Shown in pieces: positions 50,095-57,341 of a DNA stretch of 64,000 bases. Source of the stretch: Spirochaetota bacterium (lineage in GTDB: Bacteria; Spirochaetota; Spirochaetia; Treponematales; Rectinemataceae). Every line of letters begins with the position of its first letter. Position 1 is the first letter of the stretch. The notes under the pieces are model-generated. The model was not told the DNA's origin. It ran no database searches and saw only the letters and a program-made list of their open reading frames with translations. Both the position numbers and the translations under genes were made by a program. The DNA lies in assembly GCA_022711355.1 (NCBI GenBank), contig JAKLFE010000020.1, positions 1-64,000 of the forward strand, read 5' to 3'.

Positions 50095-50125
50095 CGGCGC
50101 CCCCTCCGGGGGGCGCCGTCCTATT
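50095..50125. terminator. Strong hairpin between convergent genes
   Basis: CGGCGCCCCC (50095-50104) and GGGGGCGCCG (50109-50118) form a perfect 10-base stem with a TCCG loop, between the 2-hydroxyacid dehydrogenase stop (50062) and the caspase-like gene stop (50121). On the plus strand it is followed by TCCTATTT. It probably terminates transcription on the plus strand and may serve both directions. Confidence 0.6.
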
Positions 50126-51611
50126 TCCTGAGGCTGAGGAAGCCGGGGATATCTCCGGCCGCGAGGACCTGGGGCGTCTGCTCCTGGGCGTTGAGCCCGT
50201 TGGCGTAGCGCGGCACCCATTTCCGCAGGTAGGACTCGAGCTCGGGGATGGCGATGGAGCGGTCGCCGTTCTCGTCGGCCTCGCCGGCGAGGCCCTTCAG
50301 GAGGAAGTAGGTGAACAGGCCGTGCTTCTCCTCGGGGTACCAGGAGGCGAACTCCTCGCCCGAGGAGGCGAACATGACGACGGACTCCGCGATCCTGGCC
50401 TTGGGCGCCACGGGCTTGACCGCGATGCCGGAGACGTTCTTGATCAGGAGCCCCCCGTCGCCGCCCTGGCCCGAGAAGCAGGCGTCGAAGCAGATCCAGC
50501 TCCGGCCGATCACCTTCTCGGCCTTCATTGAGGCGACGTTCTGGAGGAGCTCGTCGATCGAGTAGCCGGTGCTCTGGATGGCCAGGAGGTCGGCGTCCAC
50601 GGGGACGAGGTAGCCCTTGCCCTTGGTCGCGCCCGAGGTCGAGGGGGCCCCGTGGCCCGAGTAGTAGATGACGAGGTCGGTCGGGGACTCGCGCATCGAG
50701 GCCGTGCGGTAGACGCGGGAGCGCTTGTAGTCCTCGGCGCTCCCGAAGAGGCTCAGGAAGTCGGCCAGGCCGAGGTTCTCGGAGTACCAGATGTCCTTCG
50801 GGTCGAGGCCGAAGCTCCGCTCGAGGGTCGCGCGGAAGGCGGCGGCGTCGTTCAGGGCGTAGCTCACCGGGCTCGTGCCCCGCTCGTAGTCGCGGTTGCC
50901 GATCACGATGGCGATGACGTTCTTGGCGAGGACGCTCTTGCCGGGGGCCGGGACGACGGGATTCTTGCCCGAGCCCGAGGACTTGCCGAGCTTCAAAGGC
51001 TCGAGGCCGGCGGCGGGCTTGGACTTGGCCGGCGCGGGCGCCGGAGCGGGGGCTGGTGCGGGTGCGGGGGCTGGAGAAGGCGCCGGGGCGGCCTTCGCCG
51101 CGGCAGCGACCGGGGCGGGGGCCTGGCCGCCCGAGGCCGAGACCGAGGCGACCAGGGGCTGGACCCGCCCGATCTTCGCGTAGTCGAGCCGCGGGGCGTC
51201 GAGAATGGAGATCATGTTCGCGAAGCTCGCCGTCATGGTCATCGGATTGAGCTCGACGTAGAGGGTCGAGCCGGCGCGCACCTGCAGCGAGAAGCTCGCG
51301 GCGTAGAGGGGCGATGCCGCTCCGAAGGCGAAGCCCTCCATTCGCAGCTGGTACTCCCCCGGCGCGGCGAGGACCGAGGCGAAGGAGCCGTTCTGGATGG
51401 CGGCGACCCTGGTCTGGCCCATCGTCGCCTGGACGAGGATGGCCGACATCGAGAAGGAAGCCGGCCGCCCGAAGACCACGCGGCCCGAGCCCGCGGGGAT
51501 GGCCTCCGCGTCCAGGGGCGAGCTGCCCGCCGCCGCGTAGCCGGAGACCATGGTGGCGCAGGAGGCGCAGGATAGGAAGGCGATGAGGAGGACGGGCAGG
51601 ACTTTTTTCAT
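50121..51611 (-). CDS. Caspase-like (C14/metacaspase) lipoprotein
   Basis: A 496-residue exported protease-like protein. The N-terminus MKKVLPVLLIAFLSCASC carries a lipobox (lipidation at C15 or C18). Residues about 40-150 form an extracytoplasmic beta domain; a (Ala-Pro)n linker (about 163-197) follows; the caspase-like domain begins at about 230 (NVIAIVIGNRDYE) and has the His-Cys dyad H320 in YYSGHGA and C378 in CFDACFSGQGG. C-terminal DENGDRSIAIPE may be a calcium-binding loop. Metacaspase-like proteins cleave after basic residues. The protein should sit in the periplasm or on the outer membrane. A TTTACA-17-TATCAT promoter and GGAGGGG site precede the ATG at 51611. Confidence 0.87.
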   Translation of the reverse strand: MKKVLPVLLIAFLSCASCATMVSGYAAAGSSPLDAEAIPAGSGRVVFGRPASFSMSAILVQATMGQTRVAAIQNGSFASVLAAPGEYQLRMEGFAFGAASPLYAASFSLQVRAGSTLYVELNPMTMTASFANMISILDAPRLDYAKIGRVQPLVASVSASGGQAPAPVAAAAKAAPAPSPAPAPAPAPAPAPAPAKSKPAAGLEPLKLGKSSGSGKNPVVPAPGKSVLAKNVIAIVIGNRDYERGTSPVSYALNDAAAFRATLERSFGLDPKDIWYSENLGLADFLSLFGSAEDYKRSRVYRTASMRESPTDLVIYYSGHGAPSTSGATKGKGYLVPVDADLLAIQSTGYSIDELLQNVASMKAEKVIGRSWICFDACFSGQGGDGGLLIKNVSGIAVKPVAPKARIAESVVMFASSGEEFASWYPEEKHGLFTYFLLKGLAGEADENGDRSIAIPELESYLRKWVPRYANGLNAQEQTPQVLAAGDIPGFLSLRK

Positions 51612-51779: not shown

Positions 51780-53141
51780 GTGAAGACTCCCTCCCTGCTC
51801 TGCATCCTGATCATCCTCGGCGGCTTCGCCGGGGCCGAGGAACTCCCTCCCCCGAAGGACGAAGGCTCGCCGCGGATTGGCCTGGCCCTAGCCGAAGCCC
51901 AGGCCCTGAACCTCTCCCTCTACGCCGTCGACCGCTACCTCATCGGCTACGAGTGGGCGCAGGTCAGCCCCGACACGATCTGGCGCAACCTCCGCTCGGA
52001 CTGGGTCTGGGACCAGGACAGCTTCGCCGTCAACCAGCTCGGCCACCCCTACCACGGCTCCCTCTACTTCAACGCGGCGCGCGCGAACGGCCTGGGCTTC
52101 TACGGCTCGACCCTCGCGGCCCTCTCCGGCAGCTCCGTCTGGGAGCTCTTCCTGGAGACGGAGCTCCCCTCCAAGAACGACCTCGTCGCCACGACGATCG
52201 GCGGGGCCGCGCTGGGCGAGATGCTCCATCGCCTCTACCAGGCGGTGGAGCCCTCCCATCCCCTCGCGGCGGCCCTCCTCAGCCCGATGGACGCCGCGAA
52301 CCGCGCCCTCGGGAACGAGGGCGGGAAGGAGGCCGAGGGGGCTATCTCCGAGGGCGAGCTCTCCCTCGCCGCCGGCCTCGTCGACTACCGCCCCGCCCTC
52401 GACGCGAGCCGGGGCGAGGCCGACCGCGACCAGGATATCCTGGGGACCTTCGAGCTCCGCCTCGCCTACGGCGATCCCTTCGGCGCGGCTTCCTCGATTC
52501 CCTACGAGAGCTTCGAGCAGCGCCTCTCCCTCGCCCTCTCCCCGAGCTACCGCTCGATCGCCTTCTTCTCCGACGGCTTCCTCCGCTCCTGGGCCCTCGC
52601 CGACTCGGCCCGGCGCCGGGCGAGCCTGGGGCCCAGCCTCCACTACGACCTGATCTACAGCTCGGACATCACCTTCTCCGCGATATCCCTCGGCCTGTCC
52701 TGGAAGAGCGAGCGCGGCCTCCCCCGGGGCCTTAGGCTCCGGACCAGGCTCCACGCCGACTGGGTCGCCCTGGGCGCGAGCGAGTACGCCTTCCTGAGCG
52801 GCGAGGAAGGTTCCTCCGATGAGGAGCGGCGGGAGTACGACCTCGGTACGGGCGAGGGGGCCAAGCTCGGCCTCGAGCTCCTCCACCCCCGCCGCGGGGC
52901 CCTCATCCTCGACTACGCCTTCTACGGCTTCCACACGATCCCCGCCTCGGCCCCCGAGGAGGGCTACGAGGGCTACGCGATGATCGGGATGCTGAGCCTG
53001 GCCCTGGAGCGGGCCCTGAGCCCGGAGCTCTCCCTCGGCCTCGCTGCCTCCCTCTACCACAAGAGCGGCGTCTACGAGGATGCCCCCGACGTCGAGGACG
53101 CGACGAGCTTTGTGAACCTCTACGTCAAGCGCCGGTTCTGA
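51780..53141 (+). CDS. DUF3943-type outer-membrane protein
   Basis: A 453-residue exported protein (signal peptide about 1-18, GGFAGAEE). It contains the DUF3943 region: DSFAVNQLGHPYHGSLYFNAAR, GFYGSTLAALSGSSVWELFLE and TTIGGAALGEMLHRLYQ. The C-terminal half alternates short aromatic strands and ends with VKRRF, consistent with an outer-membrane beta barrel. The start is GTG at 51780, supported by the promoter spacing and signal peptide. It is divergent from the caspase-like lipoprotein; joint function is conjecture. Function of DUF3943 is not known. Confidence 0.82.
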   Translation: MKTPSLLCILIILGGFAGAEELPPPKDEGSPRIGLALAEAQALNLSLYAVDRYLIGYEWAQVSPDTIWRNLRSDWVWDQDSFAVNQLGHPYHGSLYFNAARANGLGFYGSTLAALSGSSVWELFLETELPSKNDLVATTIGGAALGEMLHRLYQAVEPSHPLAAALLSPMDAANRALGNEGGKEAEGAISEGELSLAAGLVDYRPALDASRGEADRDQDILGTFELRLAYGDPFGAASSIPYESFEQRLSLALSPSYRSIAFFSDGFLRSWALADSARRRASLGPSLHYDLIYSSDITFSAISLGLSWKSERGLPRGLRLRTRLHADWVALGASEYAFLSGEEGSSDEERREYDLGTGEGAKLGLELLHPRRGALILDYAFYGFHTIPASAPEEGYEGYAMIGMLSLALERALSPELSLGLAASLYHKSGVYEDAPDVEDATSFVNLYVKRRF

Positions 53142-53240
53142 AGGGCGCGCGGGGGAATGCTCAAAGCCGGACCAGGAGCCGCGCGGCCGGAGGCAGGGGG
53201 CGCGAAGCCTAGCGAGCGAAGCGAGCGTTAGCCGTGAAGA

Positions 53241-53458
53241 AGGAGTCGGGATTCGGCATGCAAAGGGGAGACCAACGAGCCGCCGCGACGGGATTGAACA
53301 GCGCTCCACTGCTCATCGGCGACGTAGGGTGGCGGGTGTCGCAACAAAAGACGGGACCTCCGACCCTAGGAGGACCGCCCCGCTTATTGTTGCGACAGGC
53401 CCCGCCCTGGGCCGTTATGAAAATGCCCGCGGCGGTTTGACCCTGGGACGTGGAGACC
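53241..53458. repeat. Structured intergenic repeat, copy A
   Basis: About 218 bases closely matching copy B at 55271-55487 (constant offset near 2030). It includes a stem of 17 base pairs: GGCGGG + TGTCGCAACAA (53331-53347) against TTGTTGCGACA (53387-53397) + CCCGCC (53401-53406), with a GGC bulge; inside is a CCTCC/GGAGG hairpin (53357-53373). It fills the 340-base gap (53142-53481) between convergent DUF3943 and GGDEF genes and may act as a terminator. A 30-base block with GCGAGCGAAGCGAGCG (about 53210-53227) is absent from copy B. No gene is seen in this gap. Confidence 0.85.
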
Positions 53459-53481
53459 GGCCGGGCGCCCCCTTACCATAC

Positions 53482-55071
53482 TCAGCCCCCCAGCACGCTC
53501 CGGTCCCTCCCCGCCTCCTTGGCCGCGTAGAGGGCCGCGTCGGCCCGCTCGATGAAATCGTCGAGCCCCGACTCGCGGCCCGGCGGCGCGGCGTAGACCC
53601 CCGCGCTCGAGGTCACGCGCAGCTCCTTCCCTTCCCAGAGGATCGGGGCGGAGCCGATGGCGAGCCTGAGTCGCTCGGCGGCGCGCAGGGCCGCGGCCGG
53701 ATCGGCGCCGGGGAAGAGGACCGCGAACTCCTCGCCGCCGTAGCGGCAGAGGATGTCGGCCTCACGCAGGACCTTCGACAGCCGCGCGGCGACGGCGCGG
53801 AGGGCCTCGTCGCCGGCCGCGTGGCCGTAGCTGTCGTTCACGGCCTTGAAGTGGTCGATGTCGAGGATGGCGACGCCGAGGCTGCGGCCCTCGCGGGAGG
53901 CGTGGGCGAACTCGCGCGCCGCCTCCTCGAAGAAGCGGCGCCGGTTGCACAGGCCCGTGAGCTCGTCGGTGCCGGCCAGGAGGGCCAGCTTGGCGAGGAG
54001 GGCCGCCGTCTCGGTGACGTCGCGGACCACGACGCCCCAGCCGTCCTTCTCCTTCCGCCGGCCGACGCGCACCCGGAAGGCCTGGGCGACGAGGCGGCGC
54101 TCCCCGCCGCCCGGCGCGGGTAGGGAGAACTCGGCCTCCCCGCCCCCGGCCTCGATCAGGGAGGCGATCTCGGCGGCCCCGGGCTCGGCGCTCCCGCCCG
54201 AGGCTGCGCGGGGCTCGCGCGCGAGCCCCGCCTCGGCCCCCAGGCTCTCGTCCTCGCGCCGGGCCCAAGGGCCGAGGAGGGCGGCCGCGGCCAGGTTGGC
54301 GTCGATCACCCGGCCGCGGCCGTCGGTCACGAGGAAGCCCTCGCGCAGGGACTCGATGGCCCGGTCCCGGGCCGCGGGCACGAGCTCGAAGAGGCCCAGG
54401 CGGAAGACCGCCAGGGCGAAGCAGAGGCTCGTGGCGGTCATGGCCAGGGGGCCCGGGTCGAGGCCCCAGGGGACGAGGCCCAGGAGGTAGGCTATGTTCC
54501 CGCCCCAGGGCAGGAGGGAGCCCGCGCAGGCCATGAGGGCCTGCCGGCGGCTCGCGCGCGTCGAGCGCAGGGCGTGGCGTACGAGGATGATATTGCCGGC
54601 GGCGAGGTAGAGCTGGTAGTAGGCGATGGTGAGCCAGTACAGGGGTCCGCGCTCGAAGCCGAAGGCGGGGAAGGGGCCGTCGGTCCTGAGCCAGGTGCGG
54701 GCGTAGTACAGGCCGTGGAGCTCGTTGCTCCAGACCGCGAGGATGGTGACCGTCGGCGCGGCGAGGAGGGCGGCGAGGAGGGCGGGTCGGGGCTTGGGCC
54801 GGCCGGAGAAGGCGAGGGCGAATAGGATCCACAGGAGGGGGAGGTAGGAGGTGGCGAGATACTCCAGGCGCACGACCGCCTCGAGGCCCGGCAGGTCCCG
54901 GGAGTCCAGCTCGAGGGCGTAGGCCAGGCAGTAGGCGGCCGAGGCGGCCATGAGCCAGGCGAACTCGGTCGCGGAGCGCACGCGGCGCCGCGCGGCCGCG
55001 TAGGCCGCGGCGAAGACTAGGAGGCCCGCGGAGAGGAGGAGGGGGAGGGTGAGGAGGTTCGTGTCGATCAT
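53482..55071 (-). CDS. Membrane diguanylate cyclase (7TM sensor-PAS-GGDEF)
   Basis: A 529-residue enzyme that makes cyclic-di-GMP. The N-terminal part (about 1-205) has around seven hydrophobic helices similar to the 7TM sensor found in some histidine kinases; a PAS domain (about 220-345; SLREGFLVTDGRGRVIDAN) leads to the GGDEF domain (about 360-525) with DELTGLCNRRRF, DIDHFKAVNDSYGHAAGD and the active loop YGGEEFAVLF. No RxxD inhibitory site is obvious directly before the loop. I use the ATG at 55071; a longer start at 55116 adds 15 residues and would follow a TTGACA-18-GATAGT promoter by only 12 bases. The gene lies between two direct repeats. Confidence 0.92.
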   Translation of the reverse strand: MIDTNLLTLPLLLSAGLLVFAAAYAAARRRVRSATEFAWLMAASAAYCLAYALELDSRDLPGLEAVVRLEYLATSYLPLLWILFALAFSGRPKPRPALLAALLAAPTVTILAVWSNELHGLYYARTWLRTDGPFPAFGFERGPLYWLTIAYYQLYLAAGNIILVRHALRSTRASRRQALMACAGSLLPWGGNIAYLLGLVPWGLDPGPLAMTATSLCFALAVFRLGLFELVPAARDRAIESLREGFLVTDGRGRVIDANLAAAALLGPWARREDESLGAEAGLAREPRAASGGSAEPGAAEIASLIEAGGGEAEFSLPAPGGGERRLVAQAFRVRVGRRKEKDGWGVVVRDVTETAALLAKLALLAGTDELTGLCNRRRFFEEAAREFAHASREGRSLGVAILDIDHFKAVNDSYGHAAGDEALRAVAARLSKVLREADILCRYGGEEFAVLFPGADPAAALRAAERLRLAIGSAPILWEGKELRVTSSAGVYAAPPGRESGLDDFIERADAALYAAKEAGRDRSVLGG

Positions 55072-55128
55072 GTCCTGCGGCTCCGGCTCTCCCCGCGGCC
55101 TGGGCCTTCGATCCATCGCGGGGCCATC

Positions 55129-55158
55129 ACTATCGGCCCGAACCGGCCGGCCTGTCAA
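55129..55158 (-). promoter_or_regulatory. Promoter of the GGDEF gene
   Basis: On the minus strand a perfect TTGACA (55158-55153), 18 bases and GATAGT (55134-55129). An ATG at 55116 lies 12 bases after the -10, another at 55071. Confidence 0.55.
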
Positions 55159-55270
55159 CCGCGCCCCGCGCGATACGCGACCTCGCCGGCCCCCATGCGG
55201 GGAGTGGGGGTGCCGGAGCGGACCGCAGCGCTCCGCGCGAGGACCGCGGAGGCAGGGGGAGCAGCGCAGG

Positions 55271-55487
55271 AGGAGTTGGGGCTCAGCAGGCAAAGGGGAG
55301 ACCTGCGAGCCGCCGCGACGGGGTTGAACAGCGCGACGCTTCTCGTCGACGACGTAGGGCGGCGGGTGTCGCAATGAAAAACGGGACGCCCGACTCTTGG
55401 AGGACGCCCCTTTTTTTGTTGCGACAGGACCCGCCCCGGGACGTTCGAAGAAAGCCCGCGGCGGCTTGATCCAAGAACGGGGAGATC
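55271..55487. repeat. Structured intergenic repeat, copy B
   Basis: The second copy, in the same orientation, in the 434-base gap 55072-55505. Its main stem is GGCGGG + TGTCGCAA (55361-55374) against TTGCGACA (55419-55426) + CCCGCC (55430-55435), with a GGA bulge at the same place as in copy A. The inner arm has CGGG...CCCC followed by seven T, which looks like a terminator on the plus strand. It lies directly after the radical SAM gene's 3' end. No gene is seen in the gap besides this repeat and the GGDEF promoter. Confidence 0.85.
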
Positions 55488-55505
55488 AACGAGGCGCTCC
55501 CCCCC

Positions 55506-57341
55506 TTACTTGAACAGCTCCTCGGGCGCCTCGACGAGCATGTGGCGGAAGTCCGCGTAGATCGTCATGAGCTCGTAGAGCCGGTCGAAGGGCAGGGCCT
55601 CGCGGTCGAAGGCCACGAAGGGCATCTGCTCCGCGAGCCGGTCGGCGTTGAAGCCCCCCTTGCCCCCGATGACCAGCATGGTCTCGAGGTCGGTGGCCTC
55701 CTCCATGGCGCGGTAGGCGAGGGAGGGGTTGCGCGTGGCGAAGAACAGGCGGGTCTGGTAGCTCGGCTGGGGGTCGAGGGAGAAGAAGCGCGAGAGCTCG
55801 TAGTAGTGCTCCTCGCGGAGGAAGGCGTCGCGCAGGCGGGCGCTGAGCTTCTCCGAGGGGATGCGCGTGTCGGAGCGCAGGACGAGCTGGTAGAGGGCGA
55901 AGGGGTTGTCGCGGCGGAGGTCGCGGGCCGCGCGGGCGAGGCGGGACAGGCCCTCGGGGTCGTCGGCGTCGGCGAGGAGGGTGATGGAGCTGGCGAGCTT
56001 GGCGGGATTCAGGCGCATCCAGTCGAGGTTCTCGCCGCGCCGCGCGTCGACGAAGGCGCGGTAGCCGCCCTCGTCCTCGCGGAAGTGGGGGGCGGGGGGG
56101 AAGGCCCACTCGACGTCGAAGCCGTCCTCGAAGGCGGCCACCGCGTCGGCCATGTCGTCCTGGGAGATCCAGTCGGTGGAGGTGACCCAGTAGGGGGGGC
56201 CCTCCATGCGGCCCATGCCCCAGTCGTCGGCCATCGCGCGCACGGGGGTGCCGGGGAGGAGGGCGAGGGGGTAGAGCTCGGCCTCCTGCCCCAGGCCGTG
56301 CATGCCCAGGAAGTCGAAGGTCTCGATGACCTGCTCGTAGCCGTCGAAGGGCAGGCCGAGGATGAGGCCGGTCTTCACGGTCACGCGGTTCTTGCGCATG
56401 ATCTCCGCGCCCCGCTCGAAGGCCGCCCGGTCCCAGGAGCGGTTCACGGCCTCGAGGGCCCGCGGGTTGACGCTCTGCAGGCCCACCTCGGCCGAGCCCA
56501 GGCCCGCCGCGGCGTAGAGGCGGCCGGCTTCCTCGCCGATCGACTCGAGCCTGAGCTCGGCGTGGATCGGCAGGCCGGCGGCGTTGGCCTTGGCCAGGCC
56601 GACGAGGCGGTCGGCCAGGTCCTCGGTGGCCTGGAAGGAGGGGTCCATGAGGTATATCTCGCTCGCCCGGCCGCGGCCGGCGAGCTCGACGACCTTGTAG
56701 GCGTCTTCCCGAGGGAAGCGGCGGACGGTCGGGTAGTTTTTGCCGTAGTAGCAGTAGCCGCACTTGCCCGGGCAGCCGCGCATGGTCTCGAGGTGGACGG
56801 GGCGCTCGGCCTCGATGGGGAGGGTGCCCGCGAGGTAGGGGTTGGGGGCCGTAGCCAGGTCGAGGAGCTCGGAGGCGGCGTAGCGCCTGGCCAGGGGCTT
56901 GCCCCGCCTGAGGTCGGCCAGGAGCTCGGCGAAGGGCAGCTCGCCCTCGCCCTCGACCAGGGCGTGGAAGGGCGAGCGGCCCGAGCCCCGCTCGCCCTCG
57001 TAGACGAGCATGCCGGGCACGACCTCGGGGCCGCCGGCGACGAAGCGGGTCCGGCCCGAGGCCGCGGCCGCGCGCTCGGCCACGTGGATGCTGCGCTCGA
57101 GGTTCCAGGCGTAGAGGCTGAAGCAGGCGAGGTCGGGCTCCCAGGCGGCGATGGCCTCGACCAGGGCGGCGTCCGAGCCGTAGTCCGTGGCCTCCCGCCC
57201 CAGGATGCGCCACTCCTCGCGCGCGAGCAGGCCGCGGGACTCGGCGTAGGCGGCCAGGCAGCCGGCCGCCAGGGGCACGTTGGCCCGGGAGCTCTCCCAG
57301 TTGGGATCCTGCACCGGCAGCTGAACGAACAATACCTTCAT
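55506..57341 (-). CDS. Cobalamin-binding-type radical SAM protein
   Basis: A 611-residue protein. The N-terminal 140 residues (MKVLFVQLPVQDPNWESSRA...FVAGGPEVVPG) are a B12-binding-like Rossmann domain; the radical SAM core begins at about 180 with MRGCPGKCGYCYYGKNY, whose C190, C194 and C197 bind the 4Fe-4S cluster, and includes EVGLQSVNP and TVKTGLILGLPFDGYEQV. The C-terminal 230 residues are helical with no motif I recognise. It probably catalyses a methylation, ring rearrangement or similar radical reaction; the substrate is unknown. The start overlaps the aat stop by 4 bases (ATGA), so it is translated with aat. Confidence 0.88.
   Translation of the reverse strand: MKVLFVQLPVQDPNWESSRANVPLAAGCLAAYAESRGLLAREEWRILGREATDYGSDAALVEAIAAWEPDLACFSLYAWNLERSIHVAERAAAASGRTRFVAGGPEVVPGMLVYEGERGSGRSPFHALVEGEGELPFAELLADLRRGKPLARRYAASELLDLATAPNPYLAGTLPIEAERPVHLETMRGCPGKCGYCYYGKNYPTVRRFPREDAYKVVELAGRGRASEIYLMDPSFQATEDLADRLVGLAKANAAGLPIHAELRLESIGEEAGRLYAAAGLGSAEVGLQSVNPRALEAVNRSWDRAAFERGAEIMRKNRVTVKTGLILGLPFDGYEQVIETFDFLGMHGLGQEAELYPLALLPGTPVRAMADDWGMGRMEGPPYWVTSTDWISQDDMADAVAAFEDGFDVEWAFPPAPHFREDEGGYRAFVDARRGENLDWMRLNPAKLASSITLLADADDPEGLSRLARAARDLRRDNPFALYQLVLRSDTRIPSEKLSARLRDAFLREEHYYELSRFFSLDPQPSYQTRLFFATRNPSLAYRAMEEATDLETMLVIGGKGGFNADRLAEQMPFVAFDREALPFDRLYELMTIYADFRHMLVEAPEELFK

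Follow-up and report, generated by a model that had tools for sequence, protein, structure and literature searches.

The question raised by this locus is why two long structured repeats in the same orientation enclose one gene for a GGDEF protein. The window (the whole stretch of 64,000 nucleotides that was analysed) lies on contig C13 of a source genome of 4.13 Mb, which is assembled in 96 contigs and is 79% complete. A sequence-only reading had described the repeat as roughly 218 bases long, with a shared long stem, a bulge at the same place and a diverged inner hairpin, and had proposed that the direct repeats could delete or amplify the GGDEF gene and thereby change the cyclic-di-GMP level. 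By using a repeat finder, both copies were recovered around the whole gene in the same orientation as two blocks, 53216-53380/55246-55410 (79% identity) and 53376-53472/55405-55501 (76% identity), with start-to-start spacings of 2030 and 2029, respectively, and blastn of 53230-53472 against 55246-55501 gave an E value of 6e-55, which is far outside chance. The alignable repeat units were located at 53216..53472 (copy 1) and 55246..55501 (copy 2), both on the plus strand. The repeat itself was thus upheld, and its length was revised upward, since the outer ends probably lie near 53150-53478 and 55203-55504, respectively; the extent 53150..53478 for copy 1, to which no strand was assigned and which includes a degenerate form of the second module (module B) described below, has ends judged by eye and would occupy the whole gap between two convergent genes.

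The structured unit of 158 nt, hereafter the core, was placed in the orientation of covariance model R1 (see below) at 53279..53437 on the plus strand for copy 1 (134.7 bits; alignment A4) and at 55309..55466 on the plus strand for copy 2 (153.4 bits), with the bulged hairpin at about 53331 to 53408 and the corresponding hairpin at about 55361 to 55438, respectively. The stem GGCGGG-TGTCGCAA...TTGCGACA-xxx-CCCGCC is present in both copies (xxx is GGC in one and GGA in the other), the position of the bulge is identical and the sequence of the inner hairpin differs, as had been described. Single-strand fold energies for the four strand/copy combinations gave z values of -0.98, -1.94, -0.85 and -4.37. 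As only one of the four folds clearly beats shuffles, energy is insufficient to prove the structure of the window copies, and covariation was taken as the proof.

The GGDEF gene (HisKA_7TM-PAS-GGDEF; 53482..55071, minus strand) has its 3' end 44 nt from core 1, and the radical-SAM/B12-binding gene (55506..57341, minus strand) has its 3' end 39 nt from core 2. The gene convergent with the GGDEF gene (51780..53141, plus strand) ends 137 nt before core 1. The order aat-radical-SAM gene is conserved in relatives. In a comparison of 29 other radical-SAM loci, mostly with 1.5 kb of flank per locus, aat adjoined the radical-SAM gene at 27, whereas neither the GGDEF gene nor that at 51780 was found beside it at any of the 29, and the GGDEF block is therefore a lineage-specific arrangement here. 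Elsewhere in the window, an open frame on the minus strand at 50121-51611 contains YYSGHG and DACFSG, which we take to be motifs known from caspase-like (C14) peptidases.

For the search of further copies, blastn was run with copy 2 and about a dozen additional divergent copies were found in the source genome. Thirteen source-genome copies, aligned in one orientation, share a core of 155-160 nt and were used for building R1. On the source genome R1 gave 16 copies at 116-167 bits and three weaker ones, of which one had 57 bits and two had about 30, and the remaining 11 of its 30 matches were reverse-strand echoes of a near-palindrome. At E <= 0.01, R1 matched in 14 of 58 genomes (the source and 57 relatives in the order), full-length in 12 and over only part of the core in G033 and G043; the genome-wide covariance search suggested by the sequence-only reading thus did yield many copies. 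A second model, R2, was built from 67 copies of 10 genomes and matched at E <= 1e-4 in 9 of the 392 genomes of a phylum sample, every one of them in the same order. A pattern scan of a named-species collection returned 48 stretches, 18 of which came from related spirochaete bins (metagenome-assembled Spirochaetota) and all scored at least 39.7 bits with R1, while only two of the other 30 matched R1 at E <= 0.05, with at most 21.6 bits. In Rfam 15, the window and the loci of 14 relatives had 0 matches above the gathering threshold; the match of mir-3158 below it (43.9 of 97 bits, on the hairpin of one copy) was taken as a look-alike long hairpin. Blastn against a plasmid collection gave no match to the element, and among viral contigs three were matched by the pattern, with a best model score of 15.8 bits; on these two results carriage by plasmid or phage was rejected. 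Searches of an open-access library and of Rfam gave no description of the element, which is weak evidence for its newness. The elements form a strongly supported structured family, which is dispersed between genes, restricted to a lineage and built on a core of about 158 nt. Several copies in G037 lie within a few hundred bases of the ends of contigs C89, C83, C65, C78 and C9; the copies are probably undercounted, because assemblies probably break at or near the elements. In G000, weak and diverged core-like copies in both orientations are clustered in about 2.2 kb (C26:4702-6889, L128).

The consensus structure was obtained by RNAalifold from an unguided alignment, and it has 41 pairs, namely an outer stem of 8, a hairpin base of 8, an inner stem of 24 and one isolated pair, with an internal loop between hairpin base and inner stem whose strands CGGGTG and CAGGnC are nearly invariant. 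In alignment A4, which was made by MAFFT and was not fitted to structure, 92.2% of cells were paired and double changes were found at 23 of the 41 pairs, values that none of 500 shuffles reached; as a control, partner columns were slid by 1-3 and pairing fell to 44-49%. In A6, which was fitted to the model, 38 of the 41 pairs had double changes. The hairpin stem has a median of 25 bp, and its inner part is fully rewritten across genera with pairing retained. Thirteen orthologous copies of the sister species G032 and G037 were also compared, and 25 compensatory double changes were recorded in 370 comparable pairs (2000 shuffles gave a mean of 3.5 and a maximum of 11), together with 31 broken pairs versus 61 expected. 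The structure is therefore kept beyond sequence identity, and on this point the sequence-only reading was right.

Such pairing could also be kept by mutation, if template switching in replication corrected imperfect palindromes (quasipalindrome correction) while the sequence drifted, and arms that are completely rewritten but near-perfect fit this explanation. However, the bulge and the internal loop stay uncorrected, contrary to expectation, the outer stem covaries as well although its arms are about 140 nt apart, and both core length and flanking single-strand motifs are kept from genus to genus, so that we consider correction by mutation very unlikely.

The ends GGGGGTGC...GCGCTCCCCC are present in source-genome copies, and the hairpin carries a GTAG foot in 9 of 13 source-genome copies and GYAG in 22 of 51 others; the GTAG foot is partly paired in the consensus fold. 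At least five T in the seven positions after the hairpin were found in 8 of 12 source-genome copies on the forward strand and in 9 of 12 on the reverse strand, and outside the source genome in 17 of 55 copies on each strand. A simple terminator scan gave 2 sites versus 1.8 in shuffles. G-T mismatches exceed A-C ones on the R1 strand by 94 to 50, in counts that are not independent by descent; this excess is suggestive and would favour folding of the strand opposite the upstream mRNA. Further counts of this strand test rest on a model-fitted alignment.

For the placement of the copies relative to genes, gene calls were made by a simple hexamer gene caller written for the analysis, and 97 copies from five genomes were placed (G000; G001 and G014, which represent genus g2; G032; and G037). 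Of 96 copies, 66 had a facing stop codon within 70 nt on the core's 3' side, versus 2 of 85 on its 5' side (p 2e-17 under equal sides). These counts are partly dependent, since the G032 and G037 copies include many orthologues and the G037 regions were picked for their copies; in the source genome and g2 alone the respective counts were 34 of 42 and 0 of 37. The orientation of the core relative to the stop of the upstream gene is fixed. The gaps that hold cores (n=84) were convergent in 42 cases, tandem in 26 and divergent in 16, and 30 of 96 cores had no facing stop within 70 nt. A small RNA or protein-binding sponge, transcribed independently from the R1 strand and binding a host protein by its invariant loop, would agree with the G-T excess and with an invariant loop within covarying helices, but no promoter was identified for such a transcript and the fixed nearness to opposite-strand stop codons is unexpected for a trans-acting RNA; we regard it as quite unlikely.

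The source-genome copies usually stand at the ends of housekeeping genes, such as those of elongation factor P, seryl- and tyrosyl/tryptophanyl-tRNA synthetase and ornithine carbamoyltransferase, and because the neighbours are mostly of this kind the elements are not mobile cassettes. This also bears on the link to cyclic-di-GMP. Recombination between the direct repeats, by which the GGDEF gene would be deleted or amplified and cyclic-di-GMP set, is consistent with the orientation of the pair, with the lack of the gene from the same place at all 29 relatives' loci and with gene-sized differences next to elements when G032 is compared with G037. However, the two window copies share no exact match longer than 17 bp, which is too short for efficient RecA recombination, and most of the other copies are single and adjoin housekeeping genes. 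Such a role is highly improbable, and as far as tested the sequence-only reading erred in tying the repeats to the GGDEF gene, which is probably their chance neighbour.

Many cores of the source genome lie between GGGGGAGC, right after the stop codon, and GCTCCCCC, which is followed by a second conserved hairpin terminating in CCCCCACT; this outer part is module B. In the window it spans 55204-55503 around copy 2, with the right half (GCTCCCCC..GGTCCTCG..CGGTC..CCCCCAC) at 55204..55262 and the left arm GGGGGAGC at 55496..55503, both on the minus strand and both taken from locus L264 (coordinates of the right half converted), and GGGGGAGC starts 5 nt downstream of the first base of the TAA that ends the radical-SAM gene. 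Five of the six module B matches in the source genome adjoin core copies, and in three other genera the radical-SAM gene was found to have module B, without a core, at its 3' end (L265:3310-3635, L266:3310-3725 and L269:3330-3519). When 15 module B copies from the analysed loci were aligned, double changes were found in 11 of 15 stem pairs, and in 11 of the 15 copies a long open frame has the first base of its stop codon 2-10 nt ahead of GGGGGAG; four of these 11 belong to one orthologous gene and two are orthologues of each other, so that about seven are independent. It is conceivable, and in our judgement unlikely, that this spirochaete order has a two-module 3'-end system, in which module B marks the first bases past the stops of chosen genes across genera and holds the core; the two together would then be a 3'-UTR regulon spanning the genome, recognised by a dedicated protein of the host or by the ribosome at termination, and would be more than a tolerated repeat. 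A different palindromic repeat, AAGTCCAAAGTTCC..GAGGCGTAGCC, follows the radical-SAM stop in L274:3340-3600 (G018) and in L273 (G009), and is in tandem in L274.

The history of the copies was followed by using a tree of 67 copies, in which 11 of the 12 source-genome copies group together, the window copies are sisters (SH-aLRT 93) and the G032 and G037 copies are interleaved. Based on this grouping and interleaving, amplification is lineage-specific at genus level, and within a genus the sites are stable. When two G032 loci were searched whole in G037, both were found to carry the element at the same place, with no clean empty site in either; ten more G032/G037 regions align with copies at matching places, the G037 regions having been chosen for holding copies. 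In L239:3892-4363 versus L147:1870-1880, an insert of about 485 bp in one sister species has an extra inverted core copy inside, and no clear target duplication was found at this insertion difference, the only one examined. Differences of about 1.2-2.7 kb lie directly beside elements in L237, L244 and L246 versus L155, L152 and L157 of the sister species, as if the spots beside the elements gain and lose genes.

A further explanation is that the element is a very large REP, namely a selfish element recognised, as a hairpin of single-stranded DNA, by a host RAYT (REP-associated tyrosine transposase), with the transposase keeping the pairing and the vicinity of stop codons being merely where insertion is tolerated. 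Three RAYT-like Y1_Tnp genes in the source genome, the GTAG and GYAG feet recorded above and, in several genomes, inverted core pairs with a spacing of about 300 bp agree with it, and published REPs are also placed after genes, in many cases with a stop codon no more than 20 bp away (PMC3733652). However, only one of 15 RAYT loci has a copy, which is weak (25.9 bits), no core-like GTAG hairpin was found at 7 RAYT loci and the core motif was absent at 32 Y1_Tnp loci, and G016, G043, G045 and G033 match the model yet have no Y1_Tnp match. Published REPs, for which mobilisation by RAYT transposases has been proposed (PMC3733652), are elements of 20-40 bp with stems of 6-13 bp, versus a core of 158 nt here. 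We consider this explanation rather unlikely, and RAYT-flanked REPs, which were tested at up to 32 loci, were unsupported. G049 has 28 Y1_Tnp matches, far above other relatives.

The reading that we favour, with a probability of about one half, is that of a new REP/ERIC-like dispersed repeat, whose copies act, if at all, at transcript 3' ends, a function being weakly supported. The copies would be transcribed together with the gene upstream, forming its 3' UTR on the opposite strand from model R1. They may act at the transcript end as a two-way terminator where A and T tracts flank the inner hairpin, as in most source-genome copies, or alternatively as a block to exonucleases, and this role would explain why old copies at shared sites of sister species have stayed paired. 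Spread would have occurred in trans by some mechanism, since no open reading frame is carried, and local copying would explain the window pair, whose copies are each other's closest relatives. A transcript-end element fits the position after stops, the convergent gaps and the A-tract and T-tract flanks in most source-genome copies. Termination is not general, given the few T-tracts in outside copies and the result of the terminator scan. The strand assigned to the 3' UTR is opposed by the G-T excess on the opposite strand, and the 16 of 84 copies in divergent gaps and the 30 of 96 without a facing stop also count against a transcript-end role.

By this analysis a large and strongly covarying element family, with a nested second module, is added to spirochaetes that are known mainly from metagenomes. 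The upkeep of dispersed palindromes is a long-open question for REP and ERIC elements, and the sister-species pairs and the many copies offer a natural test of what maintains them, be it a function of the RNA, recognition by a transposase or mutation alone.

Among known systems, integron attC sites are long imperfect hairpins with conserved unpaired bases directly after a stop codon. The present copies are alike in having a long imperfect hairpin just after a stop and differ in being scattered beside chromosomal housekeeping genes, with no arrays seen; on these neighbours an integron cassette attC was rejected. A retron msr-msd was also rejected, as no PF00078 (reverse transcriptase) match was found in the 79%-complete source genome. 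The TD-1 and TD-2 RNA motifs of Treponema, which are contained in Rfam, are likewise multi-copy, structured and of the same order, and the present copies differ from them in having no Rfam match. With MITE-like small mobile sequences (ERIC and others) the element shares many dispersed intergenic copies in the 100-400 bp class. ERIC/IRU (127 bp), RU-2 and NEMIS/Correia resemble it in size class, long stem-loop, intergenic position and probable co-transcription (PMC2229807, PMC2759123), and ERIC elements, of similar size, alter upstream mRNA stability in an orientation-dependent manner (PMC2229807). In contrast to these elements, the present copies are far more diverged, have a rewritten stem and have no known sequence kinship with them. 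The GTAG/CGTC REPs and BIMEs (PMC3733652) are similarly dispersed and palindromic, lie in convergent or tandem gaps, often within 20 bp of stops, and have inverted dimers, compensatory stem changes and a foot like the GYAG seen in part of the present copies. Unlike these REPs and BIMEs, the present element is without a copy-flanked RAYT gene and has a core of 158 nt, a long rewritten stem, an outer closing stem, a second module and a fixed orientation to the stop codon.
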